Virus record (IMG/VR): IMGVR_UViG_3300005613_000098
Coordinates: 1 to 48,816 of that record
DNA length: 48,816 nt
Strand: one strand, 5' to 3'
Source of the DNA: a virus
In this document: positions 694 to 31,112 of the stretch, piece by piece
Numbering within the stretch: position 1 is the stretch's first letter
Layout of the letters: each line of letters starts with the position of its first letter
Notes under the pieces: model-generated
What the model saw: the letters and a program-made list of their open reading frames with translations, nothing else
Told to the model about the DNA's origin: nothing
Databases searched by the model: none
Position numbers and translations under genes: made by a program

Positions 694-697
<4 letters not shown>
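179..697 (-). CDS. Unknown fibre-cluster protein (172 aa)
   Basis: No function recognised. The protein begins [16 protein letters not shown] and carries a segment rich in I/V and E ([17 protein letters not shown]) followed by HGWELIEP and a proline run at about residues 76-82 (PAPPPPQP). The C-terminal half is predicted helical and ends in acidic/hydrophobic stretches. Small proteins of this kind often accompany collagen-like fibre genes in marine T4-like phages. Its start overlaps the stop of the collagen-like fibre gene (ATGA), and its own stop overlaps the start of the lectin-like gene, so the three are translationally coupled. A fibre accessory or assembly role is a guess from position. 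Confidence 0.8.
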
Positions 698-1626
<929 letters not shown>

Positions 1627-3378: not shown

Positions 3379-3765
3379 TCATACTGCCGATTCTACTAGT
3401 GACTCCAGATCCGAAAACAAAAACGAAATCGCTTCCAGTTCCTTAATGGATAGTTTTGCATCGACGATATCATCGACAATAATTGGTTCCCATGTTATAT
3501 GAACAAATCGTTGAAGTCTCGCATTCAGAATTGATAGAAACTCGTCGTGTGATTGTTCAGAAACAAGATATGATCCAGATTCGTCTTGTGGATAGTTTTG
3601 CTCTCGAACAATGTTGTTTTGAATATCTGCGATTTCTTGAAAGTGTGGTTGCAACTCACGAACTGCTTCTCTGAGTTTCAAGTTCACTGGCATCGGAAGT
3701 GGTTGTTCTATTAACACTTGAAACACGGGATATGCACGGTAAATTTGCTCTAACGATACTTTCAT
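3379..3765 (-). CDS. Small structural-cluster protein, DUF1617-like (128 aa)
   Basis: No firm function. The overall pattern is that of small phage proteins of the DUF1617 type: LEQIYRAYPVFQVLIEQPLP at the N-terminus, then LKLREAVRELQPHFQEIADI, then SYLVSEQSHDEFLSILNARL, ending with an acidic helix KLSIKELEAISFLFSDLE. The assignment is from memory of the family layout and is tentative. It is mostly helical with no cysteines and no membrane segment. It lies 34 nt upstream of gp13 and one base downstream of the 145-aa gene, inside the minus-strand operon. A role in tail or neck assembly is possible. Confidence 0.75.
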   Translation of the reverse strand: MKVSLEQIYRAYPVFQVLIEQPLPMPVNLKLREAVRELQPHFQEIADIQNNIVREQNYPQDESGSYLVSEQSHDEFLSILNARLQRFVHITWEPIIVDDIVDAKLSIKELEAISFLFSDLESLVESAV

Positions 3766-3766
3766 G

Positions 3767-4204
3767 TCACGCTTCTTTCTTTTTCAGAGACTTTTTGACA
3801 GGATAAATGGACTCGCTCTTTGGAACTTCGTTTGCAATAAAATCCCATAAAGCATTTACTTTATTTATGAAATCTTCACCGAGAAACTCGACAGGATCGA
3901 GTTTCTTCGGTTGTGCTATTGTTGGTTCTCTTTGTTTTGGTGGTTCTGGTTTTTCTTGCTCTTGAAAAAGAATCTTCAGATCACCGAGTCTGGAAATATA
4001 TCGATCGCCGTCTTCCCACGGATATTCACCGGAAATTTGTGAAGCGTCGATGGTATGAATGTGATGGTATAAGCCTTGTTCGTACATTCTCCACGACATA
4101 CCCATCGGTTTTACATAGTCTGGCTCAAGACGAAGAAAAATCTCGTAGGGAAAACGAACACCATTGATTTCGATTGTGTCATCAGTGTTGTGTTTAAAAT
4201 ACAT
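3767..4204 (-). CDS. Unknown protein (145 aa)
   Basis: No family recognised. The N-terminal 60 residues have mixed beta/alpha character (IEINGVRFPYEIFLRLEPDY, then WRMYEQGLYHHIHTID). The middle is proline- and charge-rich (QEQEKPEPPKQREP), and the C-terminus ends in a lysine-rich tail (KKSLKKKEA). The ATG overlaps the stop of the beta-helix fibre gene by one base (TAATG), indicating coupled translation. It is retained as a real gene because it fills the operon without a gap and keeps the operon spacing. Confidence 0.75.
   Translation of the reverse strand: MYFKHNTDDTIEINGVRFPYEIFLRLEPDYVKPMGMSWRMYEQGLYHHIHTIDASQISGEYPWEDGDRYISRLGDLKILFQEQEKPEPPKQREPTIAQPKKLDPVEFLGEDFINKVNALWDFIANEVPKSESIYPVKKSLKKKEA
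3862..3869 (-). promoter_or_regulatory. Late-promoter-like octamer CATAAATA
   Basis: The minus strand reads CATAAATA, one base from the T4 late consensus TATAAATA. It lies 97 nt upstream of the 128-aa gene start and the gp13/gp14 pair. It is inside a coding region, so chance occurrence is possible. Confidence 0.35.
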
Positions 4205-6264
4205 TATGCAATACTTTCGGCAACGATGATATCAGAAGTGGTTCCTGTTGAAGTGTTTGGATTCACTGTGTTTGTTCCATTATCTATGAAGATTGTTGTC
4301 ATATAGTTTGCGTCGATATCCAGACTATTTCCAGTAATACCGGTATCCAGCAATCGAACACACGACTTCATTTCAGCATACACTCCTTCGTTAGTGTTCC
4401 CGACGATTTGACCTGCTGAGTCGGACATGTAAGAACCGTTGAGGTATATGCCACGAACGGAGTTACCAACGCTGGTATCTTCAAGACGAACTGTTCCATC
4501 ATAGACTGATGTGATGCTTGACTGAGTGATACCTGCAATTGCTGCATCAAAAGAACCGCCGTTTGCCCAGACATTGCTTCGATACGCATTGATCTGAGAA
4601 CCGATCGAAAGAATACCGCTCTCACCATTGTAGGAAACAACAGAACCCGACAGATTCAAAGTTGAATTTTGATCTAGACGAATACCTGCTTGTTTGTTGT
4701 GGAACAACCAGTTTCCGTCACGGCTTTGAACAAAGAATCTTCCGTTGTAACCAGTCGTACCGAACGAATATATTCCAAGAGACGCATCACTAGTTACACC
4801 ATATGCTGATGTTGTTCCTGTTAGTTCAACGATAGAACTGTTGGAAAGAATACCATTTGAACCGTTCAATGAAACATTACAATAGTTCATTTCGGCAACA
4901 GAACCATTGTCGAGTTCAATACCGTTTGACTTGTTTGCTGCGATGATAGTGTTCTTTAGTGTGACAGAACTGTTATTGGTTGCGTAGATGCTGGAGTTTC
5001 CCGAGCCTGTGCTGATTGATTCGGCTAGGTGCATTTTACCGTTGTCGCAATACAAGTTGTAGTTATTTGCAGATGCGAATACATGTTCTGCGGTAAGACT
5101 ACCATGATCGATGTGGATTCCTCTGTCGAAACCAGAAACACCAACATTACTTAGAACACAGTTTGCTTGTGGTCCAATGTAAATACCCGTCTTTGTGTTT
5201 GACTCTGGTGCGTATGTTCCACCATTTGCTCCTGCGTGTGCAGGACCACAGAGAACGATGTCTTCGATTCTTCCGATGCTATTCAGAATTCTCAGTCCAT
5301 CTGTTGTATCAAAGTTTAGTCGTGTCTTAAGAACATTCGCAGACAAATTCACATGTCTCTTATCACTTGCGGTAAAAAATGTTTCGCTTGATACTCCGCC
5401 AAATTCAGTATTCGCAGCACCGGTCAGCCCGAGGGTTCCTGAAGAAATATTACCAAGAATCGGTCCGGAGTAGGTGTTTATTAGCGAGCCGTTTGTGTTA
5501 AATATTCCGGATGCAGAAAGAACAATACCCTGTGGTGTGACAAATGCACTTCTGTCATCAGTGGACGATTTTGTATCTTCCCACGGATTGTCGTGCCGCA
5601 CGAACAACAGAAGTGTCGGTGTTGCACTCAGCAGACCATTTGTTGCAACAACTTGGTGTGGACCGGTTGCAAGAGTTTTACGAGAAGTTGCAATCCAGTT
5701 GTCATATGTTTGTCCGGCATTCCCAGAATGTTCTGCTGATCGAACCGCCATTCTTTCGTTTTCAAAGTCAACTTCATAGATGATAGGACCGCCAGTAGGC
5801 TTTGAAGACTCTCTGTAGTTTGGTTCGTGAATAAACACGAAGTCACCAACTGTGATTCCGGAAGAAGCATTCACATGTGCTTCCATGTAGTAACCGCCGG
5901 TTGTTGCAGAGTTTACGTTATACGATGAAATCGATTGGATTGTTACAGGAGTAACCTTTGCTCCGGTGATGACAATTCGTTCTCCATCAGGATGTTCGAA
6001 TGTAGTAGTAGAGAATGTGTGTCTTTCTCCAGCACCAGAAAAGGAAACTGCTCCGGTAATGAAAATAGTAACGGTAACACCATCAGAGATTCTTCTGTTT
6101 GTCAGACTATTCAACGCACGATCTAGAGTCTTGAATGGACTGGAGGATGTACCGGTATTAACAGTGTCGGAACCGTCAGGCGAAACATATAAAGTCGTGT
6201 TTGCTGTGATGACACCGACTGAAGATGCTGCTGAAGATGAAAATGCAACTGCGCTTGAAGACAT
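4204..6264 (-). CDS. Parallel beta-helix tail fibre/spike protein (686 aa)
   Basis: After a Ser/Ala-rich head (MSSSAVAFSSSAASSVG) comes LYVSPDGSDTVNTGTSSSPF followed by KTLDRALNSL. This is the opening motif of right-handed parallel beta-helix proteins (pectate-lyase-like fold). The remaining residues, about 250-650, are rich in short N/S/G-turn strands (for example NNSSVTLKNTIIAANKSNGI, and GNSVRGIYLNGSYM), as expected for stacked helix coils. No catalytic residues can be assigned by eye, so it may bind or cut a surface glycan. It is the third of three large fibre genes between the DUF4815 protein and gp13. Host-range adhesin is the best inference. Confidence 0.85.
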   Translation of the reverse strand: MSSSAVAFSSSAASSVGVITANTTLYVSPDGSDTVNTGTSSSPFKTLDRALNSLTNRRISDGVTVTIFITGAVSFSGAGERHTFSTTTFEHPDGERIVITGAKVTPVTIQSISSYNVNSATTGGYYMEAHVNASSGITVGDFVFIHEPNYRESSKPTGGPIIYEVDFENERMAVRSAEHSGNAGQTYDNWIATSRKTLATGPHQVVATNGLLSATPTLLLFVRHDNPWEDTKSSTDDRSAFVTPQGIVLSASGIFNTNGSLINTYSGPILGNISSGTLGLTGAANTEFGGVSSETFFTASDKRHVNLSANVLKTRLNFDTTDGLRILNSIGRIEDIVLCGPAHAGANGGTYAPESNTKTGIYIGPQANCVLSNVGVSGFDRGIHIDHGSLTAEHVFASANNYNLYCDNGKMHLAESISTGSGNSSIYATNNSSVTLKNTIIAANKSNGIELDNGSVAEMNYCNVSLNGSNGILSNSSIVELTGTTSAYGVTSDASLGIYSFGTTGYNGRFFVQSRDGNWLFHNKQAGIRLDQNSTLNLSGSVVSYNGESGILSIGSQINAYRSNVWANGGSFDAAIAGITQSSITSVYDGTVRLEDTSVGNSVRGIYLNGSYMSDSAGQIVGNTNEGVYAEMKSCVRLLDTGITGNSLDIDANYMTTIFIDNGTNTVNPNTSTGTTSDIIVAESIA

Positions 6265-6284
6265 GTAATCGATTCCTTATTAGA

Positions 6285-8633
6285 TTATTCGACTCGGAAA
6301 GCAAAACCGGTACTGATTGGTTCGGGAAATTGGTGAGGAGTTGTTCCGTCACTGATCGCCGTTCCTTGACCTTCAGAAAATGGGAATTCGTTATCATCGT
6401 CACTAGACCATCTCCAGTAAGCATATACCCAAGTTCCTCGCGGGAAAACATATTGAGTCATGCCAGGGGCGCTTTTCCCTCCAGGCCTGCGAAGTGCTAT
6501 TAGTTTACCAACACTATTGTCGCTACTCGTATTTGGTTTCCAGCCTGCTTCCGGTAGTTTGAAGTTTGAAGAATATGCTCCTGCTTCCAACTGTATCTGT
6601 GCGAGTCCTAACCAATAAGAACCCACACTTATATTGCCGTCAAGTGGAGTTGCCTGGTTGTCTGTTGCATAGATTTGCAATCCAGCATCCCATACCCTAG
6701 AGTTTTGGGTTCTTCTGACATTTCCTGCGGATAGAGCAAATGACACCTTTAGCCCGTATTGACTCGGACCATTAGTTTCTTTGAAGTTCCATTGTTGTAT
6801 CGCATCAACAGGTACTTTAATTTCGTGCTTTGTCCATTGGTTCGGAACCGGTCGGAATTCATCTACGAATCTTCTACCCGCTCTACCGTTTCCTGTCTGA
6901 TTTCTAAACGAAACGGATATGCGATTTGTTTCGTTCAAAAAATAATCTTGTGGCGTCCAAGACCAAAAACTCAATGTAAACCATTCTGCTTGTAACAATT
7001 GAGCGTATTCTCTACCACTAACTAAGAATGATAGTATGTGATATTCGTCGGGGGAAAACAGTGATGTTGTAAGTTGTTGGATTTTTCTAATCAGCAAAGA
7101 ATCACCGGTAATGCCAAATTCTGAAAAAGCACTTGGAACAAAATCGTGTCCTGCTACATTTTCTGTAAGACCTTGATACGAATTTGCTGCATTATGACCT
7201 GGAACCGCACCACCTCTTTCTATTTGAAACAGTCTATCCGTTCCGCCAACACCACCCGATCTTTCATAGTACCATTCATTCGCCGTGTATGCAGCGGTAA
7301 ATGCAGCATCGTTAAATGTGATTCCATTTGGCCACTTATCAAACGCACCGTTTTTGCAATAGTTTACGGTTGCGGTATCGGGACGCATAATGAACTTTTG
7401 CTCTGTTCTGTTCCAAGCAACCAGATCCCCGTTCTTTTGATTGTTACTAGTTGGGAATCCTCTGCTCGTATCGACATCTCTCAGATTGCGAAGATTGACT
7501 GTAATGATTGCTGCGTCTGCGACTGCTCTCGCGCGAATAATCCAGTTTACAACCTGATATGGTGGCATATTGTTGTGAGCAACATTGTTTCCCTGTGCAG
7601 TAATATGAATATCTTGTGTTGCATATCCAAAGTCGTAGTCATCTCCTATGTTTGGAGATAGATATGCTGGCCAGTCATTTGCTAAAATTGGTCCTCTAGT
7701 ATCTATTGGAGAAACAGGAACAGGTGTCTCATCTGGTCCGATATTGACAGTTGGTGCGGGTGATTCAAAAATTCCGTACACATCTCCGTATGTAACATAA
7801 TCGGCTGGGTTTTGTACCAAATCGTCAATATATGCTAAATAACCAGAACCGGTATGGTTGTGTTCAGGCAATTCGCTTATTTGCAATGCGTGGGTTTCTT
7901 CGCCACCGCTACTACCTAACCCCCGTACCGTAAAACTGCTGTTACCACCAACTTCGGGATTTGCACCAAGAGCAAATCTACCCCGTAAGTCTGGAAGTCT
8001 ATACGCTGTTCCACCACCATATGATCTATCAATTGCCGCAGAAAGTTCTGGATACTGGTTTGGGTCGTATTCACTACCATCACAAGGCAACCAACCATCG
8101 GGAATTGTATTTGCTGGTCCACCAAACGGAGCGATCATTCCTACTGGTTGAATTGAACTAATATCAACCAAATCTTCAAGAATATCGCTATTACGAATAC
8201 CAATATAGTTTTGAACGAAACCTATACCATTCGTTGTTGTTTGAATGAAGATTGGTTTTCTTATGCTTGCACCATCTTGTGGTGGTACATTTGTCATCAG
8301 ACCGGGAGTTTCATCGCTTAAGAAGTAAAATTCTCCTTGAGTCGGATTGCCAACAATACCGAGATTGTCTACCGTAAACGAACCGCTTTCAATCTTTCCG
8401 TTCAATACCATTGTAAATGTATCAACGGAAACCGCTTCAACAACACCTATGACTTCTGCGTTTACATCCGCAGAAACGCCATCGAATTCTTTTGCGATTG
8501 CTTTCGTATATTGGTCATTCGTCGCATCATAACGAACAACATTTCCTGCAATGAAACTGTGACCGGGTTGCGTAATGGTTATCCTTGAACCACCGCCGCC
8601 GCCACCAATTCGTCCTAATGCTGTTGAACCCAC
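6285..8633 (-). CDS. Short-tail-fibre-like protein with phage tail collar domain (782 aa)
   Basis: The N-terminus has a glycine run (RIGGGGGGSRITI). Residues about 20-150 form a domain (GNVVRYD... to FVQNYIG) also present in the neighbouring 881-aa fibre. A phage tail collar domain (T4 gp12 type) follows at about residues 160-225: PVGMIAPFGGP, PDGWLPCDGSEYDPNQYPEL, then YRLPDLRGRFALGANP and LPEHNHTGSGYL. The C-terminal third starts NYCKNGAFDKWPNG and is a carbohydrate-binding-like beta-sandwich ending in QIQLEAGAYSSNF. The gene lies in the gp12 position relative to gp13/gp14. It probably acts as a baseplate-attached short fibre with a sugar-binding tip. Confidence 0.88.
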   Translation of the reverse strand: MGSTALGRIGGGGGGSRITITQPGHSFIAGNVVRYDATNDQYTKAIAKEFDGVSADVNAEVIGVVEAVSVDTFTMVLNGKIESGSFTVDNLGIVGNPTQGEFYFLSDETPGLMTNVPPQDGASIRKPIFIQTTTNGIGFVQNYIGIRNSDILEDLVDISSIQPVGMIAPFGGPANTIPDGWLPCDGSEYDPNQYPELSAAIDRSYGGGTAYRLPDLRGRFALGANPEVGGNSSFTVRGLGSSGGEETHALQISELPEHNHTGSGYLAYIDDLVQNPADYVTYGDVYGIFESPAPTVNIGPDETPVPVSPIDTRGPILANDWPAYLSPNIGDDYDFGYATQDIHITAQGNNVAHNNMPPYQVVNWIIRARAVADAAIITVNLRNLRDVDTSRGFPTSNNQKNGDLVAWNRTEQKFIMRPDTATVNYCKNGAFDKWPNGITFNDAAFTAAYTANEWYYERSGGVGGTDRLFQIERGGAVPGHNAANSYQGLTENVAGHDFVPSAFSEFGITGDSLLIRKIQQLTTSLFSPDEYHILSFLVSGREYAQLLQAEWFTLSFWSWTPQDYFLNETNRISVSFRNQTGNGRAGRRFVDEFRPVPNQWTKHEIKVPVDAIQQWNFKETNGPSQYGLKVSFALSAGNVRRTQNSRVWDAGLQIYATDNQATPLDGNISVGSYWLGLAQIQLEAGAYSSNFKLPEAGWKPNTSSDNSVGKLIALRRPGGKSAPGMTQYVFPRGTWVYAYWRWSSDDDNEFPFSEGQGTAISDGTTPHQFPEPISTGFAFRVE

Positions 8634-20687: not shown

Positions 20688-22550
20688 TCATAGTCCTGTT
20701 ATGATTGAACCGTTTCCTGTGATTCTATTGTTAAGTTGCATGTTTTTTTCTTGGAGCGTTGTTATTGCAACAACTTGCAACGCTTCGCTATCGGTAATAT
20801 CCAAAGTGAGAAGTTGGTTTTCGTTTGCGTAGATATTTTGGTTTTTCGGAAGCACCGTAATTTTGATAACAGATCCTTCGATTGCAACTGGACGGAAGTT
20901 AATCAAAGTTATTCTTCCTTTCTTGTAATCAATGGAACCTGCATTTGAATACACGATCACTCTATTGCCAAATGTGTCTAGTTTGTAGATTCTCAATGCA
21001 CCAGAACCGTCGTCCTCTAAGAATCCACGAAACACCGTGTTGGTATCGTCTTTGTAATCAAACCCCGTAGACGATAATACCGGTGTCTGATACCCGTCGT
21101 TCGGATGGAATACTTCATTGTTGAAGTTCAACGAATAATTGGTTGTTGTGTTTATGGTGGGTGAAAGATACTTTTGAAGTCTTAGTTTAAGTTCAGTACC
21201 AACAACCGAATCGCTGATTTCGTCAACGAGTCCGATCAACTTAGAATAATAAAGATCACCGTCAAATTTTTCAAGGTCTTGATCGACATAGTTTCTGATC
21301 TGAGTGATTGCAAGCGATCGAATTCCATTTGGTGTTTGTGTTGTTCTGCTTTGATCGAAAACAACACGCACATCAAACAGAAGATACAGAGGGTCCGGAT
21401 CTAGTATTTCTGGTACAATCGATACGATACTTCTATTTCGTTTAATGCTTTCTATAATCGATTGCTTGGTAGGAGTATCGAGAGACAGTCCAACCTTTGG
21501 TTTGAGTGCGATAAAAACTTTTCCATACTCTGGCGGATCTTTGTCTTGACCGTCCCATACGATTGCTGTTTCGATGTCTGGAAAGTCGCGTATCACCATT
21601 GTTGCGAAGTCGTTTTGTGTTACTGCTCTATCTTGTGCTTGATAGTTTCTCGGGGCATTGTATTTGATTGAGCGAATAGACTCTGGTGAAGATCCACCGG
21701 CAGATGCTGCAACGGTTTGAACAACAAATCCCTCCAGAGAAAAAGATCTTCTTAGGGTTGTGTCATTTCTTCCGATACCATTTGCGTCGGGGTTTCGTGT
21801 GATTACAAATTGACATATAATAACATTCCTGTCAGCAGGCTTTGCACCAACAATATTATCACCAAAGTATATCTCGAACCTTCCGTTGTCTGTTTCCTGA
21901 AGATGATATACTTTATCAGTGTTTTTAATTTCGTTGAGGTTTGATGCAAGTTGCCACTTGGTGCTAAACCCTGTGCTGTCGGTAATCGAATTTGTTACAC
22001 GAACTGTAAGTGTCGAAGTGTCTGTGTTTTCCGGAAGAATAAATTTTTGGTTTCGGTTGTTATTATTTACGACAAAGGAAAGCGTAGAAAATTCTCCTTC
22101 GTAAATTTTAACATTTTCTGCCACATGTTGAGACCCCGAAAGTTTACTTGTAATATTTTCTTTAGTTACAAAAGTATACGATTCACCAGAAACGCTTGCA
22201 GTAAACGCTCTACCTGCTTCTAGAGAAAACGAACTATTATTTGTAATATTTACAATTGCGTACGGAGAACGAATCGAGTTGGGTGTGTAGCCAAGATGTT
22301 TTGCAATTGACACCACCGAGTCTCGTTTAATTGCGGTGTCCAAAAACATTTCATTTGCTACCATATTAGCATAAAACGATTGGTAGTGTGTGTTGTAAGC
22401 AAGAACATCGAGAAGGTAATTAAGTCCCGAACCTTCAAAGTTATAATCTTTGAATAATTCTTGACCTTGAAGATAAGACTTTAGACTCGCCTTTATGCTG
22501 TCAAAATCCAACTCAGACACTTGTAGATTTTTGTTGAGTTCTTCTGCCAT
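20688..22550 (-). CDS. gp6: Baseplate wedge protein gp6
   Basis: Recognised as the gp6 family (baseplate J-like). It begins MAEELNKNLQVSELDFDSIK and has YLQGQELFKDYNFEGSGLNY, LLDVLAYNTHYQSFYANMVA, NEMFLDTAIKRDSVVSIAKH and LGYTPNSIRSPYA, all typical of T4-like gp6. The central part has APRNYQAQDRAVTQNDFATM, the conserved loop of baseplate J-like proteins. Length 620 aa is close to T4 gp6 (660 aa). gp6 dimers form the inner ring joining the wedges of the baseplate. The start overlaps the gp25 stop by one base (TAATG), as expected for the coupled gp25-gp6 pair. Confidence 0.95.
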   Translation of the reverse strand: MAEELNKNLQVSELDFDSIKASLKSYLQGQELFKDYNFEGSGLNYLLDVLAYNTHYQSFYANMVANEMFLDTAIKRDSVVSIAKHLGYTPNSIRSPYAIVNITNNSSFSLEAGRAFTASVSGESYTFVTKENITSKLSGSQHVAENVKIYEGEFSTLSFVVNNNNRNQKFILPENTDTSTLTVRVTNSITDSTGFSTKWQLASNLNEIKNTDKVYHLQETDNGRFEIYFGDNIVGAKPADRNVIICQFVITRNPDANGIGRNDTTLRRSFSLEGFVVQTVAASAGGSSPESIRSIKYNAPRNYQAQDRAVTQNDFATMVIRDFPDIETAIVWDGQDKDPPEYGKVFIALKPKVGLSLDTPTKQSIIESIKRNRSIVSIVPEILDPDPLYLLFDVRVVFDQSRTTQTPNGIRSLAITQIRNYVDQDLEKFDGDLYYSKLIGLVDEISDSVVGTELKLRLQKYLSPTINTTTNYSLNFNNEVFHPNDGYQTPVLSSTGFDYKDDTNTVFRGFLEDDGSGALRIYKLDTFGNRVIVYSNAGSIDYKKGRITLINFRPVAIEGSVIKITVLPKNQNIYANENQLLTLDITDSEALQVVAITTLQEKNMQLNNRITGNGSIITGL

Positions 22551-22939
22551 TATCGTATTCTTTCTAGCGGGAATGTGAGGTTTGTTGTTGTATTAAATCC
22601 TGTTACCTGAAACAAAATGCCAACTTCAAGGGCGTTTATATCCGGTGATGAAATAATATTTACGGAGCGAAGACGAACTCTAGGTTCATAGTCACGAATC
22701 ATTCTTTCGATGTTGTTGCGAAGACGAATTGCTATAACCGGATTGTAATTCTCAAACAATAAAGTGGTAACATCAGAAGCGATTTCTGGATGAAACGGTT
22801 TTTCAAATACATTTGTTAAAATGAGATTTCGTATTGATCTCTTGACTGCTTCTTCGTCATACTTGAGAACAACATCCTTTGTGACTGGATGTGGCATAAA
22901 GTCAAGGTCAAGATCGACATATCTTTTTTGCTTGTTCAA
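22550..22939 (-). CDS. gp25: Baseplate wedge protein gp25
   Basis: Recognised as gp25: DLDFMPHPVTKDVVLKYDEE, AVKRSIRNLILTNVFEKPFH, PEIASDVTTLLFENYNPV and RNNIERMIRDYEPRVRL, with the EPR motif shared by gp25/lysozyme-like baseplate proteins. It initiates sheath polymerisation and is part of the inner wedge. The start is uncertain. No ATG fits. A TTG at 22939-22937, two bases after the PAAR stop, gives 129 aa (T4 gp25 is 132 aa) and a homologue-like N-terminus; a GTG at 22990 would overlap PAAR by 49 nt. TTG is preferred, although no good Shine-Dalgarno is visible for it. Confidence 0.9.
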   Translation of the reverse strand: MNKQKRYVDLDLDFMPHPVTKDVVLKYDEEAVKRSIRNLILTNVFEKPFHPEIASDVTTLLFENYNPVIAIRLRNNIERMIRDYEPRVRLRSVNIISSPDINALEVGILFQVTGFNTTTNLTFPLERIR

Positions 22940-22941
22940 GA

Positions 22942-23247
22942 TCAGTCTGCCCAAACGGTAGGTGAGTGAGTATTGCAACGAGAACCACACGCGATTGGAT
23001 CGCCTTTACGGGCAATCGATAAACCATTTGCAAAGACAGTCGGAGAACCGGAAACAGTAAAGGAAGTATGTCCTCTTTTGTTCGAGCAACCATGCTCTGC
23101 CCAAGTATCAGACTTACGGTGTACCGCGATACCGTCAGCAAACACATCTGGCGATGCAGAGGTATTTTGTCTTGGTGGGAAACATTCGTGTCCCGTACAG
23201 ATATCGCCTTTTCTTACTACTTGTGGCATATAGTATGTATACGACAT
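22942..23247 (-). CDS. PAAR-repeat spike tip protein (101 aa)
   Basis: Small protein with the PAAR layout: MPQVVRKGDICTGHECFPPR, then SPDVFADGIAVHRKSDTWAE, SGSPTVFANGLSIARKGDPI and a final ACGSRCNTHSPTVWAD. The repeated S-P-x-V-F-A-(D/N)-G-(I/L)-x-(V/I) units and the conserved His/Cys residues (CTGHECF, HGCSNKRGH, CGSRCNTH) fit a metal-binding conical tip. PAAR proteins sharpen the central spike (gp5 in T4) and close the beta-helix end. It lies between the large structural gene and gp25, and starts right after the stop of the former. The cysteine content is higher than usual for PAAR proteins. Confidence 0.93.
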   Translation of the reverse strand: MSYTYYMPQVVRKGDICTGHECFPPRQNTSASPDVFADGIAVHRKSDTWAEHGCSNKRGHTSFTVSGSPTVFANGLSIARKGDPIACGSRCNTHSPTVWAD

Positions 23248-25332
23248 TTACCTGACAAGCACCCATTCATTTGTGCCTCTTTTTCGTAAATATACTTCCT
23301 CGAATTGAATAACTGTCCCTGTGTCCACTCCTGTTTTTCTTATAACCACTTTAATGTCTCCGGGTGCAATTAAAACACTTGATGCGTTTCTGTTGTAAAC
23401 ATGTATTGTAGTTCCAATATCAAACGCGACAACTGCATTTTCTGGAACAGATAATGTCGCACCACCAGATGCGTTAAATGTCACTACTTTGTACGCATCA
23501 GATATATCCAGAGTATACGAAGAGGTTTTTGTGGTTGTTTCTAGTAATCTTAAATCTGTCGGACCAGTTGGACCTTGTTCACCAGTTGGACCAGTTGGAC
23601 CAGTTGGTCCTTCAGTCCCAACACCGGGATCACCACCACCACCACCAACACCACCAGCAGCACGGGAAAACCCTGCTGGTAAAAACTTTGCATCATCAAC
23701 ACTCGATAGATTCGTTGCACCACCACGAATAATCAGATCACCGAGAAATACCGCATTTTCTTTTGTTATTTGTGCTTCTGCAAATGATTCGGTTACAATT
23801 CCGTCGATGGCGTCTGACTTTGAATTGTATTGTGCGACACCATAATAGCAGATCACATCATTTGGAGTATTCGAAAACATAAACAGACGCTGAATCGTCC
23901 ACTGATTATTATTTACTGTCTGAAGAGTACCCGTGTTGTTATCGTATTTGGTTGGATCGATAAACTCATAGAAAGTACCATTGTTGGTGTCAAATGTATA
24001 ACCACCTGATCCGTCTCTAGATAACCTGCAAAACGAAACACCAGTAACCGCAGATAATACCACATTATCGGGATCAAACTGATTTGTTGCGTAATTGCCT
24101 CCGACAACAAGTGCCTCACCAGATGATCTGTCGAATTTTAGATTTGAGTCGTTTGGAGTCAGACGAAGACCAGACTTCTTCATCGGTCCAAACATGTTAA
24201 ACAATTCGGTTACTTTTTCTGCGTAATGATAACCGACGCTTTGTTTGTTTGTTGCAAGAGTAATTGTTGCATTGTCGATGTGACAAATAGTACCAATGAT
24301 TATTTTTGTTTGATAATCTAATTCCGTAAATGGTGTTGTCAATTGGATCAGATCACCGGTATCATCTATGTAAAGATAAGTAAAGTTGTCGGATGCAATA
24401 AAATCCAGCGTCACTCCCTCAAAGTCACTCCATGAAATATATTCACGATCAAAAGAAGCACCGGATGAATTGGCGGTATAGGTAATAACATGACCAATAC
24501 CAGCAGACACATCAAATGTTGTTCCACCGACTTCTGCCGTAATGACACCACCGTAGAGAATTCCGGTTGTTTCTTGTAGGTCCACATTACCATTCGTCCA
24601 CTCGGATGCAACTGGGTCCCATATTAGAACCTCACCCTTTTCTGGGTTCATGTTTGTGTTTACATCTTCAAGTTCCCACAGATTGATTTCGTCAACAGAA
24701 ATACGAATGAAGTCTCGTCGTTCGTTATCTGTGTCGATGCGAATGTTTGAACCGGATACGAATGTAACTACCTTTTCATCGTACAGAATACCGTTTGAGT
24801 TGATCTGCTGTATCGTGGAACCGGTGATTTCTGTGACATTTCTCGGTCCAGATGTCGGCAAGTCCACAATTTCTTGCGATACCTTACCATCGATGGTTGA
24901 TACCTTCGTGGTGGTTTTGATTTGACCACTTTTGTTTGTAAGTGTCGTATGATAGTCGCCAGATATTTTCGATTCGCTGGAGTTTCGAGTGAACACATCA
25001 CCCGCTACCTTCGTCTTCTTCTTTTCAACCTGCGGAAAGTTGATGATCTGAAATGAAACAGGCGTTTGAATGACACTTGGAAGAATTGATGATGCTGGTT
25101 TTCTTTGTGACACAGGAATCTGGTGTTCTTGTGCGACATGATCGCCATTGAACACTACACCGTTTCCGGGGTTTCCTAAACCAAGTGGACGAAAGTATCG
25201 TCTACCTGCAAGATAGATTGGTTCTGCTTCGTTACGAGGACTTGCTTCAAACGCAGCACGGCTGCTGCTGTAAAGAGGATACCAGCCTTCGACAGAATAT
25301 GGACCGTAATCGTTGGTGTTTCGTGTTGTCAT
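23248..25332 (-). CDS. Large structural protein with collagen-like linker (694 aa)
   Basis: It has an N-terminal module with GPYSVEGWYPLYSSSRAAFE, RRYFRPLGLGNPGNGVVFNG and a nearby HVAQEHQIP. A central beta-rich region follows (residues about 200-560). A glycine-rich patch and a short collagen-like linker ([20 protein letters not shown]) lie near residues 585-605, then a C-terminal beta domain of about 90 residues (SSYTLDISDAYKVVTFNASG to NEWVLVR), a type common at phage fibre ends. Its position directly downstream of the Cys-rich gene and upstream of PAAR suggests a baseplate-hub-associated fibre. The ATG overlaps the stop of the Cys-rich gene (ATGA). Confidence 0.82.
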   Translation of the reverse strand: MTTRNTNDYGPYSVEGWYPLYSSSRAAFEASPRNEAEPIYLAGRRYFRPLGLGNPGNGVVFNGDHVAQEHQIPVSQRKPASSILPSVIQTPVSFQIINFPQVEKKKTKVAGDVFTRNSSESKISGDYHTTLTNKSGQIKTTTKVSTIDGKVSQEIVDLPTSGPRNVTEITGSTIQQINSNGILYDEKVVTFVSGSNIRIDTDNERRDFIRISVDEINLWELEDVNTNMNPEKGEVLIWDPVASEWTNGNVDLQETTGILYGGVITAEVGGTTFDVSAGIGHVITYTANSSGASFDREYISWSDFEGVTLDFIASDNFTYLYIDDTGDLIQLTTPFTELDYQTKIIIGTICHIDNATITLATNKQSVGYHYAEKVTELFNMFGPMKKSGLRLTPNDSNLKFDRSSGEALVVGGNYATNQFDPDNVVLSAVTGVSFCRLSRDGSGGYTFDTNNGTFYEFIDPTKYDNNTGTLQTVNNNQWTIQRLFMFSNTPNDVICYYGVAQYNSKSDAIDGIVTESFAEAQITKENAVFLGDLIIRGGATNLSSVDDAKFLPAGFSRAAGGVGGGGGDPGVGTEGPTGPTGPTGEQGPTGPTDLRLLETTTKTSSYTLDISDAYKVVTFNASGGATLSVPENAVVAFDIGTTIHVYNRNASSVLIAPGDIKVVIRKTGVDTGTVIQFEEVYLRKRGTNEWVLVR

Positions 25333-28298
25333 GGACCACCTCCAAATCCGGATGGATCACACCCGCCGCATTTGGTGTTGTCGCATATACCACCAACGTT
25401 ACAATTGCAACTTACTCCGTCGAAGCAACAACCAATGGCGTTTTCATCACAGCACACACCCCCACAACATATTCCACTTTCACAGCAGCTCCCGTTGCAG
25501 CAACACCCCGACGCACAGCATTCTCCATTGCAACATGCTTCGCCTTCACCACAAATATTTCCACCACAACAATCACCTATGTCAACACAAACATAATCAC
25601 CATCTGCGTTGGTGCAGCATTCCTTGTCCAGTGGACAACATGGTCCATCAGGTCCACAGCATTCTCGATTTTCTGGACAGCACACACCACCACAACATAC
25701 ATCGCTAGCGTTTGGACAACACTCGCCGTTGCAGCAAATGTTTTCGCAGCAATCGTCTCCAATATTGTTGCAGCATTCGCAGCAAGTGCCATCACAGCAC
25801 AACGGCTTGTTTGGATCTATGCAGTCACGACTTGTAGCACATTCTGGACAATCTTCGTTGATTGGTGCTGGTTTTCCATCACAGCATCTTTCCGTAAGTG
25901 GATCGATGCACTCGCATGGTTCACCAGCATTATTACCGTTTGGATCTGGACAGCAACATTCCAAATCAGGACCGCAACATGTACCAATTCCTGTAGTTTC
26001 GTTTGTGCAGCACTTAAAGTCTAGAGGGCAGCAACCAAAACCATTGTTGCAATCTACGCTTCCAACAGGACAACCACACTCACAATCCTCTAGAATAGGT
26101 TCGTAACCTCGACATCTATTAGGTCCGAATGGACAGTCGGCAAAATAGTTTCCATAGCATCCAATGGTATTGTTTAGACCACACAGTATATTTATTATGG
26201 AGGGGTTAAACGGATCTTGAGGATTCGTGCATGTGCTTTCGATAACACTGCCTTCTTGGCATTGACAGCAAACATGAGGACAACAACCAAACCCATCACA
26301 GCAAGAACTTCCTACCTCACAGCATGTTGGTTTTCCGTCAGGTAAAACACAGCAATTCTGTCCATCGGGACAACACACATAAGTCTCAGCGAACTCTCCC
26401 TCGCCCGGACATGCCTGTTCGGTACAGCATACAGAATAGTTTTCGAGCCAATGCTGATAGCATTCCCCCGGACAACACCCGTCAGTGTTATTTACGAGAA
26501 TGTTACATCGCAACCCATCTTCTACGCTCGTCAGACAAGACACACCAGAGTCGTGGTCGTGGTATCTCGGCTTTTCGCACTTTTGACAAGTAATGTTTGG
26601 ATTATTGGGACAGCCCGGAAGATCATCGCAATCGCAATCTTCAGGTAATGCACAGACACCATTGCAGCATATTTCGCCTTCAGCACAGCAATTGCCTCCA
26701 CAGCACTCTGTCGGACAACATTCACCACCACAACACGGTGTCGAACAGCAAATATCGTTGCAGCATTCAGAGCCTTCTATTGGGCAACAGCCAGTTCCAC
26801 AGCAGATAGTTCCTTCTGGACAGCACAGAGGATTGCCTTCTGCATCTGTGCAACAAGTGTCATCTTCATTTGGACAACATAAACCATCACAGCATTTTGC
26901 AGACGCACAGCATTTATTGTCGCAGCAACTAGAACCGGCAGGACAACAGGGATTTGTTGGATCGTTGGTGCAGCATGATCTTCCGTTCGGACAACAACTA
27001 CTAGAGTTTGCAGGACATTCAAATGTGCCTTCTGGACAGTCGGAAGGTTCAAAACAAGGAGGACATGTGCCATCGGGACATGGTTGAACACAGTCTGATC
27101 CGCAGCACACCAAACCTGGCGGACAGTCTCCGGTATTATTACAACCACCAACACCAGCACAGTTTACACCTTCGCCAGTTTCTGAGTTAAAACAGATAGA
27201 ACCATCCCCGTTGTAATCACCACCGAAGAAACCACATTGACTTGCCGATACCGAAATGCAATAATCACCGACGCAGCACGCACCGGTTGGTTCGGGATCG
27301 TCACCACAATCGCAGTTTTGACCCGGAGGACCAGGAGGACCAGGCAAACCAGGCGCGCCAGGAGGACCAGGAGGTCCAGCAGGACCAGTTACCGCATCGG
27401 CAAAATCTTCTGGACAACCAGCACCTGCAAGTTCAACTCTTTCAAAATATTCTGCTACTTCGTCGTCCGGTGTACCGTCTTTGATCTGCTTTAGAACATT
27501 TTGTAGATCGGATGTACCGAAGACATTGTTCACCACATCCGAAATGAAAGGATCGGACAACACATCGCTTGCAAGTTTCAATCCGCTTGAATACTTTGAA
27601 AGAAAACTAATCGCTTCACAATAACACAACTCGTCTTTTGGAATGATCTGTTGTAGATCATTGACAATTCCCGGCAGAAAATCTTCGTTCATGCAAGAGC
27701 ATAGTTGTGGGTTATTTTTCACTCTACTGGCAAGTCCAGCGACACCCGAAGTTTTTGTAAATCCTTGACAGATGCCGGTGCTTGGTTGACATCCAGTAGA
27801 ATTGCATATTCTTGTGTAAACATCGGTGCATTCACCGGCAACACTACAAAATACACACGATATCTTTTCGGTGTTTTTGCCTGTTATTGTCTTGAGTGAT
27901 TTGGTGTATTCTGACGCAGCAGAGAATCTTTGAAAAAACTCGTCGATGGTTTCGGGATTTGCTCCCGTGATTCTGTCTGTATGAATGTCGATCAAATCCA
28001 ACTCATACATGATATCGTTGAGTAGAGAAATCGCTTCGATTGTGCATTGTAACGGAATACCAGCACAGGAGAAACAACCAGGCACTTCATTCGGTGTCCC
28101 AGCAGAAATACCATCACGCAATTCCTCAAACTCCGAAATTTGATGAGACACACAACGTTTTGCGGCATCAATCAGATTGCGAGCAGGATTTTTGAGTGCC
28201 TTTCCCTCCAACACAACAAACGCAGCACGTCGCTCTGCGTTTGAAATCGTATTTTCTGGTATGTTGACTGTTGTTGGATCAAAAGGTATCTTCGTCAC
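25329..28298 (-). CDS. Giant cysteine-rich protein with collagen segment and granulin-like CC repeats (989 aa)
   Basis: Residues 1-300 are an ordinary mixed helical domain with about 16 cysteines (for example residues 75-85, 148-177, 225-227). Residues 305-327 are a collagen-like GPA-GPP-GPP-GAP-GLP-GPP-GPP run. Residues 331-989 hold about 150 cysteines by hand count (roughly one in four), largely as CC pairs in short units such as CCPAGSSCCDNKCC, CCGGECC and CCNGECC. This resembles granulin-like or other disulfide-rich modules but does not fit the canonical granulin spacing. No signal peptide or membrane segment is visible. It lies between a small protein after gp5 and the structural gene before PAAR, so a baseplate-hub virion component is likely. 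Function unknown. Confidence 0.88.
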   Translation of the reverse strand: MTKIPFDPTTVNIPENTISNAERRAAFVVLEGKALKNPARNLIDAAKRCVSHQISEFEELRDGISAGTPNEVPGCFSCAGIPLQCTIEAISLLNDIMYELDLIDIHTDRITGANPETIDEFFQRFSAASEYTKSLKTITGKNTEKISCVFCSVAGECTDVYTRICNSTGCQPSTGICQGFTKTSGVAGLASRVKNNPQLCSCMNEDFLPGIVNDLQQIIPKDELCYCEAISFLSKYSSGLKLASDVLSDPFISDVVNNVFGTSDLQNVLKQIKDGTPDDEVAEYFERVELAGAGCPEDFADAVTGPAGPPGPPGAPGLPGPPGPPGQNCDCGDDPEPTGACCVGDYCISVSASQCGFFGGDYNGDGSICFNSETGEGVNCAGVGGCNNTGDCPPGLVCCGSDCVQPCPDGTCPPCFEPSDCPEGTFECPANSSSCCPNGRSCCTNDPTNPCCPAGSSCCDNKCCASAKCCDGLCCPNEDDTCCTDAEGNPLCCPEGTICCGTGCCPIEGSECCNDICCSTPCCGGECCPTECCGGNCCAEGEICCNGVCALPEDCDCDDLPGCPNNPNITCQKCEKPRYHDHDSGVSCLTSVEDGLRCNILVNNTDGCCPGECYQHWLENYSVCCTEQACPGEGEFAETYVCCPDGQNCCVLPDGKPTCCEVGSSCCDGFGCCPHVCCQCQEGSVIESTCTNPQDPFNPSIINILCGLNNTIGCYGNYFADCPFGPNRCRGYEPILEDCECGCPVGSVDCNNGFGCCPLDFKCCTNETTGIGTCCGPDLECCCPDPNGNNAGEPCECIDPLTERCCDGKPAPINEDCPECATSRDCIDPNKPLCCDGTCCECCNNIGDDCCENICCNGECCPNASDVCCGGVCCPENRECCGPDGPCCPLDKECCTNADGDYVCVDIGDCCGGNICGEGEACCNGECCASGCCCNGSCCESGICCGGVCCDENAIGCCFDGVSCNCNVGGICDNTKCGGCDPSGFGGGP
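26189..26196 (-). promoter_or_regulatory. NATAAATA octamer inside the Cys-rich gene
   Basis: The minus strand reads AATAAATA. It lies inside the cysteine-rich coding region, about 860 nt upstream of the next gene, so it is weaker support for a promoter than the other copies. Confidence 0.2.
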
Positions 28299-28307
28299 GA
28301 ATTATCC

Positions 28308-28877
28308 TCAAAGATTTGGTAACTGATCTGTAATTTGCGAGAACTTTGGAAAGTCTATATTCGGAATCAGACTATTTATGTTCGGAAGTCTAGGTACAGT
28401 TTCCAATACCTGCTGATCGATGCTTTCTCCTGCTTCCGTAATTTCTTCGCAAATTTCTGCAAGTGGGTTTTCAATATCAAGAGCATTCAATACATCGTCC
28501 ACCGCTGCAATAATAATTTGCTCTGGATCAATTTCTGTTGGTAATCCTAATGCACGCAAGATGCCTTCGGGATTTGCAAGCGCAGTAAACTCGGGTATGC
28601 CTGTAAATTGTGCAATCGGATCTTCGGGAAAGAGATTAAACACACCTGTACCAGCAATGACATCTTTGATGCCAGGAAAATCAGAAATCGCCCCGGGAAT
28701 GCTTGCAACACCATCGACGCCTTTGAGAAGATTTTTGTCACAGAGAGGATTTCGCTGAAGGAGTCTTCCTGCACCCGCTGCTTGCACAATAGCGGATGGG
28801 TGATCGATCTTGATTAGATCGGGAAACTTTGGTGTGATGCCACTTGGAAGAGGATTGTATCCAGAACGAAAAACCAT
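28308..28877 (-). CDS. Unknown hub-cluster protein (189 aa)
   Basis: No family recognised. It starts MVFRSGYNPLPSGITPKFPD and is unusually rich in proline, glycine, isoleucine and leucine, with AIVQAAGAGRLLQRNPLCDK at about residues 29-48 and an acidic stretch EICEEITEAGESIDQQVLET near residues 141-160. The C-terminus repeats P-x-(I/L)-(N/D)-x-(L/I) (LPNINSLIPNIDFPKFSQI). It starts one base inside the gp5 stop (TAATG) and precedes the Cys-rich gene by 9 nt, so it is co-translated with spike genes. Hub accessory or spike-associated protein is the best guess. Confidence 0.8.
   Translation of the reverse strand: MVFRSGYNPLPSGITPKFPDLIKIDHPSAIVQAAGAGRLLQRNPLCDKNLLKGVDGVASIPGAISDFPGIKDVIAGTGVFNLFPEDPIAQFTGIPEFTALANPEGILRALGLPTEIDPEQIIIAAVDDVLNALDIENPLAEICEEITEAGESIDQQVLETVPRLPNINSLIPNIDFPKFSQITDQLPNL
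28373..28380 (-). promoter_or_regulatory. Late-promoter-like octamer CATAAATA upstream of the Cys-rich gene
   Basis: The minus strand reads CATAAATA, 75 nt upstream of the start of the 989-aa gene. This is a sensible promoter distance for a late transcript beginning in the 28308 gene. Confidence 0.4.
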
Positions 28878-30226
28878 TACCCTATCTCTTTCTTGATTGT
28901 TCGCGGGGTTGACTGTGTTCTTTGTGCGGCTACTCTTGCAGCGTCAGAAACGATGGGTGCGGGTAGTGTTGCACTGGTAGATGTTTCCCCACCAGAAGTT
29001 GGTGCGTTTGGTTTGTTCAAGTGTATTTGAGATGCGTTCATATAAATTGGACCACCACCTGCTCGTACAATATATTGACCATCAATAATCTGTGTGTAAT
29101 TTCCCCTGACATACTGATTGAAGTTTCCATTTACATGAAGATTCAGTGAACCGTTTTCGACTTGGAGGTTTACATCACCCGTTCCAACTTTTGCGTTGAT
29201 GTTACCTTCTGTCACTTCCAGATTCAGGTTTCCTGTTTTTGCAACCTGAATGTCCAGGTCATTGCCTTCTTCGTCTGCGTTTACAAGAATCTTACATGCT
29301 TTATCCACGGTAACATTTTTGAAACCTTCCACATGAACATTATCGTTTTTCATAACAATCGTGTAGTTATTTCTTACAATCTTCTCGACACGATCCCCGT
29401 TCGGGTGGATCTCTTCAAATGTGCCCGAACGATGATACCGATGCAATCGCTCTCTTTGTGGTGTGTCATCAATTTCAATGATGTGCCCGGACTCACTTTC
29501 ATAGACATGATTGTGAGGATACTCTGCACCATATGGAGTCAATGGTTCTGTCCACGCTCCCGCTCGATTCTGTCTTTTCAGTACGGGACTTGTTGTGCCA
29601 TTTGAACCAACTCGTTTTGGTGTTGCGGTGATATCAGCGGTTGGAACAAATCGATCTGCGTTTGCTTTTTTCAGTTCAACGATTGTATCTACTGTGTTTT
29701 CGTTTCTTGCGAGCCGATTTGTGTCCGGTTCTTGCAAGTAACCTCTTTGCGGGTATTTTCTCGCGGAAGGCTCATTGATAATTGCCGCACCCGCACCGTT
29801 TGTTGGGTATTGTTGAACGATAAAACCGTTACCAAGTTGTCCACCCGATCGTGGATCTTCTGCAAGTTGCTCTTGTGTTCTTGGATCAGAAAACCCTTTG
29901 CTGAAATCTGGTTCCTCTTGTGGAATTCCTGCAATCGAACCCATAATCATAGGTTCCTGACAGTCTTCTCCGTCTCGAAAGAAACCGACAACCCACGATC
30001 CTGGCACAAGACCAGTTGGCGACCAGCCTTTTCCTGATCTCGCCGCACTCGTAATTGGCTGCACCGGAATCGCCCAAGGCAAATCTTCTGTGGGTATCTC
30101 GTTTCGATCTTCACTGTGCAAACCAAGACAACGAACACGACATCTACCGATCATTAAAGGATCGTTTACATCTTCAACGACACCCATGAACCAAACGAAT
30201 TGTCCTTTACCAAGAAACTTTTGCAT
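28877..30226 (-). CDS. gp5: Baseplate central spike protein gp5, without lysozyme domain
   Basis: The N-terminal OB-fold (residues about 10-110) shows FVWFMGVVEDVNDPLMIGRC, RVRCLGLHSEDR and GSWVVGFFRDGEDCQEPMIM with GSIAGIP, the gp5/VgrG pattern. A middle region leads to HNHVYESESGHIIEIDDTPQ and the IVRNNYTIVMKND segment. Residues about 310-400 form a series of short strands (GNLNLEVTEGNINAKVGTGD, then GSLNLHVNGNFNQYVRGNYT), the triple-stranded spike beta-helix. The T4 muramidase domain between OB-fold and helix is absent, as in marine relatives. The protein forms the trimeric needle that pierces the outer membrane, tipped by the PAAR protein at 22942-23247. Confidence 0.93.
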   Translation of the reverse strand: MQKFLGKGQFVWFMGVVEDVNDPLMIGRCRVRCLGLHSEDRNEIPTEDLPWAIPVQPITSAARSGKGWSPTGLVPGSWVVGFFRDGEDCQEPMIMGSIAGIPQEEPDFSKGFSDPRTQEQLAEDPRSGGQLGNGFIVQQYPTNGAGAAIINEPSARKYPQRGYLQEPDTNRLARNENTVDTIVELKKANADRFVPTADITATPKRVGSNGTTSPVLKRQNRAGAWTEPLTPYGAEYPHNHVYESESGHIIEIDDTPQRERLHRYHRSGTFEEIHPNGDRVEKIVRNNYTIVMKNDNVHVEGFKNVTVDKACKILVNADEEGNDLDIQVAKTGNLNLEVTEGNINAKVGTGDVNLQVENGSLNLHVNGNFNQYVRGNYTQIIDGQYIVRAGGGPIYMNASQIHLNKPNAPTSGGETSTSATLPAPIVSDAARVAAQRTQSTPRTIKKEIG

Positions 30227-30227
30227 A

Positions 30228-31112
30228 TTAAGTCAACTTATCTGCCATGTCTTTACCAGAACCGAAAATATCTTTTGTTGCTTTTGATTTTGGTACACTG
30301 TTTCGTATCCAGTAAAGTACCTGATCCTTAAGTTCTCCATCGGAAATGATTGGACGACCTGGTTCTTTCAGTTTGAAATACTTGAAGTCCTTGATAACCA
30401 TTCTTCCATCTCTACCATCAAGCGGTTTGCCTGTCTTTGGATCTGTATAGAATACGCTGTGTTTTGCACCCGATAAAATGACATAGAATTCACCATCGAG
30501 TGCTGCTGGCATGTTTCCTTGAATCATGTTATACATGGTTAAAGCAGCACCTTCATGTGTCTTTAAAAGAATGTCATCGGGAACGATTCTGGATCGGGAC
30601 TTGTTTTGCTGGACTGCAATGTGATAGTTTGAGAGTACCCATATAACATGAAGATCCTTTGGATCGTACCCGGCTTGTATAAGCATCTTCACTTCGTTAT
30701 CGAGAATGTCAAGATCCTTGAATGTAGCATCTACAATGATATTTGGCAGTTTGCCAGTCTTTGCTTGACCCAGTAGAAGTTCGAGTGATTTGTCGTATAT
30801 CCCCTTGTCTTTTACAAACATGTGAAGTGCAAAAACATCTTTTGGTCTTCTCAGATCCAATCCACGAATCTCTGGAAACTTGTTCTTAAGTTCTGCCAAC
30901 TTTAGAAATGAAATCTTGAGTTCATCGACATCTCTTACTTTAAATGAACTACTATCGATGAAATTCTTGATTGCGAATCCTTTGCCACTACCACCACCTC
31001 CTGCAAGAAAGATCACCTGTCCGTATCGCTTTCCTTTTCCGGTGATAATAAGTTTTTCGTTAAGTTGTTTCAGTTCTTCTCTTATATGCTGATATTCGTT
31101 AAATTCAAGCAT
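30228..31112 (-). CDS. P-loop kinase, zeta-toxin-like, with capsid-targeting-like N-terminus (294 aa)
   Basis: A Walker A motif lies at residues 38-45 (GGGGSGKG, K44). The residue after the lysine is glycine rather than the usual Ser/Thr. VRDVDELK follows at about residue 60, and LPNIIVDATFKDLDILDNEV is a Walker-B-like strand near residue 150. This layout fits the zeta-toxin/AAA_33 P-loop kinase group. The first residues, MLEFNEYQHIREE, resemble the short targeting peptide of T4 internal head proteins. It lies between the hub gene and gp5, overlapping the hub stop by 8 nt. No antitoxin gene is adjacent. Phosphotransfer to an unknown substrate is inferred from the fold; the target is unknown. 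Confidence 0.82.
   Translation of the reverse strand: MLEFNEYQHIREELKQLNEKLIITGKGKRYGQVIFLAGGGGSGKGFAIKNFIDSSSFKVRDVDELKISFLKLAELKNKFPEIRGLDLRRPKDVFALHMFVKDKGIYDKSLELLLGQAKTGKLPNIIVDATFKDLDILDNEVKMLIQAGYDPKDLHVIWVLSNYHIAVQQNKSRSRIVPDDILLKTHEGAALTMYNMIQGNMPAALDGEFYVILSGAKHSVFYTDPKTGKPLDGRDGRMVIKDFKYFKLKEPGRPIISDGELKDQVLYWIRNSVPKSKATKDIFGSGKDMADKLT

Follow-up and report, generated by a model that had tools for sequence, protein, structure and literature searches.

What is the function of a phage protein that joins a short collagen stretch to a long cysteine-rich body, and whose gene lies among baseplate genes? The question is raised by an open reading frame (ORF) in the IMG/VR virus record IMGVR_UViG_3300005613_000098, all 48,816 nucleotides of which were analyzed (the window).

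A cysteine-rich gene in a baseplate cluster

The ORF covers positions 25329..28298 on the minus strand (GTG start, stop included) and encodes a 989-amino-acid (aa) protein with 167 Cys. A preliminary description had reported a 989-aa frame with about 165 Cys, close to one Cys in every four residues between residues 331 and 989 and many of them in CC pairs. The frame exists, with the correction that it is read from the minus strand; the plus-strand reading of the same positions is full of stops. Residues 331-989 hold 151 Cys (22.9%) and 54 CC dipeptides, compared with 34 expected when this part is shuffled at its own composition and with a maximum of 50 in 2000 shuffles. The other 22 ORFs of the window's cluster have a Cys content of 0.35% (36/10,242). 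Codon use is similar to that of the neighboring genes for many amino acids and differs at Cys, Ala, Leu, and Pro.

The gp5 and PAAR neighbors mentioned in the preliminary description are also present. The gp5-like central spike protein, with an OB domain and a C-terminal part, is encoded at 28877..30226 and the PAAR-motif protein at 22942..23247, both on the minus strand. Between gp5 and the Cys-rich gene, in the window as in most relatives, is a gene for a 189-aa companion (28308..28877, minus), which begins MVFRSGYNPLP and has no family match. On the other side, a 694-aa partner protein is encoded at 23248..25332 (minus). The gp25-like (22550-22990) and gp6-like (20688-22550) baseplate wedge genes, on the same strand, mark the baseplate cluster, which further baseplate and tail genes fill out. 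The cluster also contains a gene for a P-loop kinase-like protein (FLAGGGGSGKGF; phrog_5268) at 30228-31112 (minus), which is found directly before gp5 in relatives as well.

The carrier is an uncultured T4-like phage lineage. In its best long alignments to isolates, the window gp5 does not exceed about 41% identity, and the capsid protein of a 134.8-kb relative (G003) shares about 60% identity with its counterparts in Methylophilales phage Melnitz, Pelagibacter phages, and cyanophages. A search for the host through homologues in Genome Taxonomy Database (GTDB) genomes found none. Cellular CC-repeat proteins that were found by their pattern include exported-looking ones and two from Planctomycetota, and they do not identify the host.

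A close relative, L002, is 82% identical in the best segment and 83% over the alignment. Comparison of the two genes gives dS 1.12 and dN 0.115 (ratio 0.10) over the whole gene; for the Cys-rich part, dS is 1.37 and dN/dS 0.103. The two proteins agree at 163 of the 166 aligned Cys positions, and three are changed. The L002 protein is 25 aa longer, yet each protein has 167 Cys; the single long insertion is one 12-aa unit with four Cys, in L002. The preliminary description had allowed for a misassembled or contaminating frame, and the extreme composition might also suggest a shadow reading frame, but such an artefact is ruled out for practical purposes by the dN/dS of 0.10, by a Cys framework that is conserved over independent contigs, and by synteny. 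Because this ratio indicates selection and the Cys framework persists in homologues of 30-45% identity, the ORF is a real gene.

Family, domain plan, and cysteine framework

The family is present on at least 16 IMG/VR contigs besides the window, a lower bound since the list is complete only for the search patterns used. Profile searches raised the count to 15 contigs, and a survey of gp5 loci added L196. Among the matches listed, a search by CC pattern gave mostly noise, plus L008 and L035, which have homologous N-termini; most CC-pattern matches in viral contigs are short low-complexity frames and were rejected. Other viral Cys-rich ORFs of about 250-306 aa with CC repeats (L016, L027, and L067) lie on contigs without a gp5 match. 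No member was found among 50,697 phage records or in GTDB genomes. Searching INPHARED by tblastn with the whole protein, the N-domains of two members, and the Cys-rich part gave no match, where the low-complexity filter weakens the Cys-rich queries and leaves the N-domain queries unaffected. A search of NCBIfam returned only insignificant HisB matches, and our literature search found no paper on such a Cys-rich collagen-bearing phage protein.

As far as the contigs reach, the members share a common plan in which the N-domain is followed by a short Gly-X-Y stretch, then by a GACC module, and finally by a CC-rich body; in the second L150 copy, the GACC start comes later. In distant homologues, the identity at Cys positions is 0.88 compared with 0.30 for other residues, while Cys within the N-domain are less conserved (0.47). 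Moreover, L133 and L134, which are 70% identical, have 158 Cys each with three Cys substitutions, and only two of the 28 indels between them touch a Cys. The largest Cys count in one chain is 269 (L135).

The N-domain (residues 1-304; 27387..28298, minus) is conserved in all members, with a length of about 290-335 residues. Its AlphaFold model (pLDDT 75.5, pTM 0.71) is almost entirely helical. In Foldseek, this model matches viral DUF7217 models with E 5e-4 to 5e-3 and probability 1.00, at TM scores of up to 0.51-0.58 and low sequence identity; against the PDB it has no match. By sequence the likeness is weak. The best member, L136, matches PHROG_2114 with E 6e-4 over 46 residues and Pfam DUF7217 with E 9e-4 over 45 residues (19.5 bits, below the cut-off of 29); L196 has a DUF7217-type match at E 0.004, and hhalign aligns the N-domain to DUF7217 with E 3e-4 over 24 columns. 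No member reaches the curated DUF7217 cut-off across the whole domain. DUF7217/PHROG_2114 is a virion protein of Ackermannviridae and is also present in Felix O1-like phages. It corresponds to ORF129 of LIMEstone1, whose presence in virions was confirmed by mass spectrometry on the basis of two unique peptides (PMC3296691). The N-domain remotely resembles DUF7217, whose LIMEstone1 member is a virion protein, and this is suggestive of a virion-anchoring domain, as judged from sequence and model. The known DUF7217 members that were examined differ in being stand-alone proteins of about 240 aa, encoded elsewhere in the genome, without a collagen stretch or a Cys-rich tail.

Residues 305-328 (GPAGPPGPPGAPGLPGPPGPPGQN; 27315..27386, minus) follow as a run of Gly-X-Y triplets. 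The preliminary description was right about a GPP-type collagen run and one short in its count, as there are eight triplets rather than seven: GPA GPP GPP GAP GLP GPP GPP GQN, with Pro in Y in 6/8. The run is short, and its Pfam Collagen match (E 0.0019, 18.4 bits) is under the 27.2 cut-off; homologues also carry a short Gly-X-Y stretch. The sequence makes it likely that this stretch forms a collagen triple helix and acts as a trimeriser. Short Gly-X-Y runs are known from other phage tail proteins, such as the PHROG collagen-like minor tail proteins and the collagens of Escherichia coli O157 prophages (PMC3368898), and the window has other collagen genes. One of these, at 694-1626 (minus), contains 42- and 78-bp tandem DNA repeats; its product is a second collagen-like tail protein, in which GATGPTG/GETGPTG repeats occur. 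What sets the present protein apart is that eight triplets are followed by about 660 residues at 23% Cys.

This Cys-rich part starts with a GACC-x4-C-x7-C-...-C module (residues 339-380; 27159..27284, minus), in which the Cys are invariant in the family. It continues as a CC-pair body (residues 381-989; 25332..27158, minus) with loops of mostly three and five residues, the predicted shaft. The AlphaFold model of residues 305-560 has short beta-hairpins at middling confidence (pLDDT 71, pTM 0.35). Foldseek finds no significant match for this model; its weak list consists of EGF, follistatin, granulin, knottin, and other disulfide-rich extracellular proteins. The granulin-like character of the repeats named in the preliminary description comes down to a likeness. 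CC pairs, short loops, and a predicted beta-hairpin ladder are common to this body and granulin/progranulin, but there is no Pfam granulin match at E up to 1, and granulin structures in the PDB are matched at E 0.53 and 1.6 by sequence and at about 7-8 in Foldseek; membership of the granulin family is therefore less supported. The pattern CCxGxCCPxGxxCC is also found in cellular CC-repeat proteins of Streptomyces, Nonomuraea, Acidobacteria, Phycisphaerae, and Diapherotrites, which were chosen by that very pattern, while GTDB genomes lack a homologue of the N-domain. Bacterial proteins of this kind (L166, L179, L180, and L165) have Tat-like or lipoprotein-like N-termini.

Because the weak fold list is made up of disulfide-rich extracellular proteins and the Cys framework is rigid, the body probably forms disulfides. 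After the GACC start, the Cys counts are even in the four split members, in which the partner is a separate ORF (150, 150, 142, and 142), which fits pairing, although these members are two pairs of relatives; the counts are odd in three fused members. The main alternative for this part of the protein is a metal-binding shaft, in which the acidic CC-rich body binds iron, zinc, or copper in place of forming disulfides, and stiffens or delivers metal to the host. The 151 Cys and the strong acidity (98 D+E vs 18 K+R after the GACC start, and a pI of about 4.05 for residues 331-989) agree with such a role, as does the finding that the virus records searched, which are mostly fragments, gave no match to thioredoxin or glutaredoxin. 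(Prolyl hydroxylase gave none there either, and neither the window nor G003 has a tRNA-Cys.) However, CxC and CxxC spacings, which are typical of metallothioneins and of zinc and iron-sulfur sites, do not dominate here, with seven CxC and four CxxC making up 11 of about 150 gaps, and the nearest folds, none of them significant, are the disulfide-rich ones. Hence, we consider the metal-binding shaft improbable.

The partner gene and the position after gp5

Nearly all members with enough sequence have the order gp5, a companion of about 190 aa, and the Cys-rich gene; the companion is missing from L135, and its place in L150 is taken by a 254-aa gene. The gene that follows is closely coupled. In the window, the partner start overlaps the Cys-rich stop (ATGA); the junction in L002 is the same except that the partner starts with TTG, and in L133 and L134 the overlap is one base (TAATG). 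The partner has a junction domain (FQIINF ... FVSGSNIRIDT) followed by middle and C-terminal modules of tail-fiber/minor-tail type. A partner domain is fused into the Cys-rich ORF in G002, G003 (twice), and G010 (E 1e-13 to 8e-20), the partner is a separate ORF in G001, G008, and G009, and both L150 copies carry an FQ[IL]VN[FY] junction motif. The split members form one group in the N-domain tree; therefore, splitting, or fusion, needs one change there. Tandem Cys-rich copies are found on two contigs, G003 and L150, and the two paralogues of each genome (L137 9983-18657; L150 9992-19226) have their own distal parts.

The distal ends match tail-fiber PHROGs in L137 (E 9e-10; second copy 8e-5) and L150 (E 3e-5); no tail-fiber match was found for the tips of L135 and L136 or for the L133 and L134 partners. 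The window partner matches the tail fiber of Stenotrophomonas phage DLP_6 (E 1e-22), and also tailspikes of Streptomyces phages and minor tail proteins of Gordonia phages. Tail-fiber tip modules are, in other words, found in the polypeptide itself or in its direct partner. Since relatives carry the Cys-rich protein joined to fiber tips, it is probably the shaft of a host-attachment fiber, and on this sequence evidence it quite likely belongs to a receptor-binding fiber, that is, an adhesin.

The T4 long tail fiber (gp34-gp37) has its proximal and distal halves encoded by adjacent genes. The present family is similar in that proximal and receptor-binding parts are adjacent genes or one chain, and in that some ends match tail-fiber PHROGs. 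In contrast to T4 fibers, a Cys-rich body behind collagen serves as the putative shaft and the gene is located after gp5. No match of the family to gp34 or gp37 was found.

Where would such a fiber be attached? Among the 80 gp5-like loci listed, eight have a Cys-rich ORF at or directly after gp5; at a ninth flagged locus, L265, the Cys-rich ORF is far away. In L210, a single 1380-aa ORF (3450-7592) comprises the gp5 OB and needle domains (Pfam E 2e-29 and 4e-4; T4 gp5 structures E 5e-52), two collagen runs, a middle domain, GxCC modules, and a tip that is 41% identical to the L137 tip over 166 aa (E 8e-26). Downstream are genes for a GASRAAS protein, PAAR, gp25-like, and gp6-like proteins, in the order seen in relatives; this fusion is known from one contig. 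A different but equally Cys-rich ORF starts at the gp5 stop codon in L215 (= G007; L193 10156-13296) and L264 (8206-10938). The N-termini of these ORFs are unrelated to the N-domain; the site next to gp5 is thus filled by Cys-rich proteins that differ in their N-terminal parts. The main split is the same in the family tree as in the gp5 tree. That the fiber attaches to gp5 is a possibility for which we see slightly less than an even prospect. A PAAR protein is expected to cap gp5, and the PAAR gene in the window complicates attachment at the end of the spike.

The preliminary description had proposed a needle, a sheath, or an adhesin. As a needle, the protein would extend or harden the envelope-piercing gp5 spike, and adhesion would not be its chief role. 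The constant position after gp5, the gp5 fusion in L210, and the nearby PAAR gene are in line with this reading. It is nevertheless as improbable as the metal-binding shaft, given that tail-fiber type ends are fused in L137, L150, and L210, that the window partner has adhesin-type modules, and that the two tandem copies of some genomes are easier to reconcile with alternative receptor binders than with a single axial needle. The adhesin option gains from the relatives, which run from N-domain through collagen and Cys body to the partner and in some cases on to tail-fiber tips, and from L210, where gp5, collagen, GxCC modules, and a homologous tip are joined; the needle is less supported.

A proposed fiber shaft and its implications

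Collectively, we favor, with some reservation, the reading that this protein forms the shaft and proximal section of a receptor-binding fiber that is associated with gp5 and becomes disulfide-locked after release. The N-domain would anchor the fiber to the virion, with the gp5 central spike or its vicinity as the most likely site, and the collagen stretch would make the fiber trimeric. While still in the host cytoplasm, the CC-rich body would remain reduced; after the virion has left the cell, oxidation would turn its cysteines into a dense disulfide ladder, giving a stiff, protease-resistant shaft. The translationally coupled partner next door would carry the host-binding tip. In its most specific form, a trimeric collagen-disulfide fiber on a T4-like gp5 spike that is made reduced and hardened by oxidation as the virion exits, the model is tentative and taken as a whole rather unlikely.

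The receptor-binding fiber has to be weighed against a role outside the virion, with the protein acting, either secreted or inside the cell, as a Cys-rich effector or decoy that is released at lysis and whose gene is in the baseplate operon by chance. Some cellular CC-repeat proteins, with their Tat-like or lipoprotein-like N-termini, are probably exported, but no signal peptide is visible by eye at the N-terminus here, the position is fixed and coupled with baseplate genes across the family, the protein is fused with tail modules and gp5, and the N-domain resembles a proven virion protein. Such a role is very improbable.

Known phage fiber shafts are beta-helices, coiled coils, and collagens. 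The sequences suggest a new family of adhesin shafts that are rich in Cys and bear collagen; the fusions give good support to fiber membership, while we infer the disulfide locking and the attachment to gp5. The family is known solely from metagenome contigs, and none was detected in the isolated phages searched. It would also be easy to miss in proteomics, as there are 18 Lys/Arg in about 650 residues and few tryptic peptides would be released if the protein is oxidized. A mechanical analogy, with no homology claimed, is offered by the cnidarian minicollagens of nematocyst capsules, in which a short collagen is joined to Cys-rich domains that polymerize via disulfides (PMC4863159); their Cys-rich domains are small, whereas here there is one long CC-rich body. 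If the proposed role is true, a shaft with one Cys in four residues would be a building material of a new kind, produced in a reducing cytoplasm, which raises the question of how a virion protein remains reduced until release. Should the redox-locked adhesin be true as well, it would be a new type of phage fiber shaft and, in material design, a viral counterpart of the cnidarian minicollagen.
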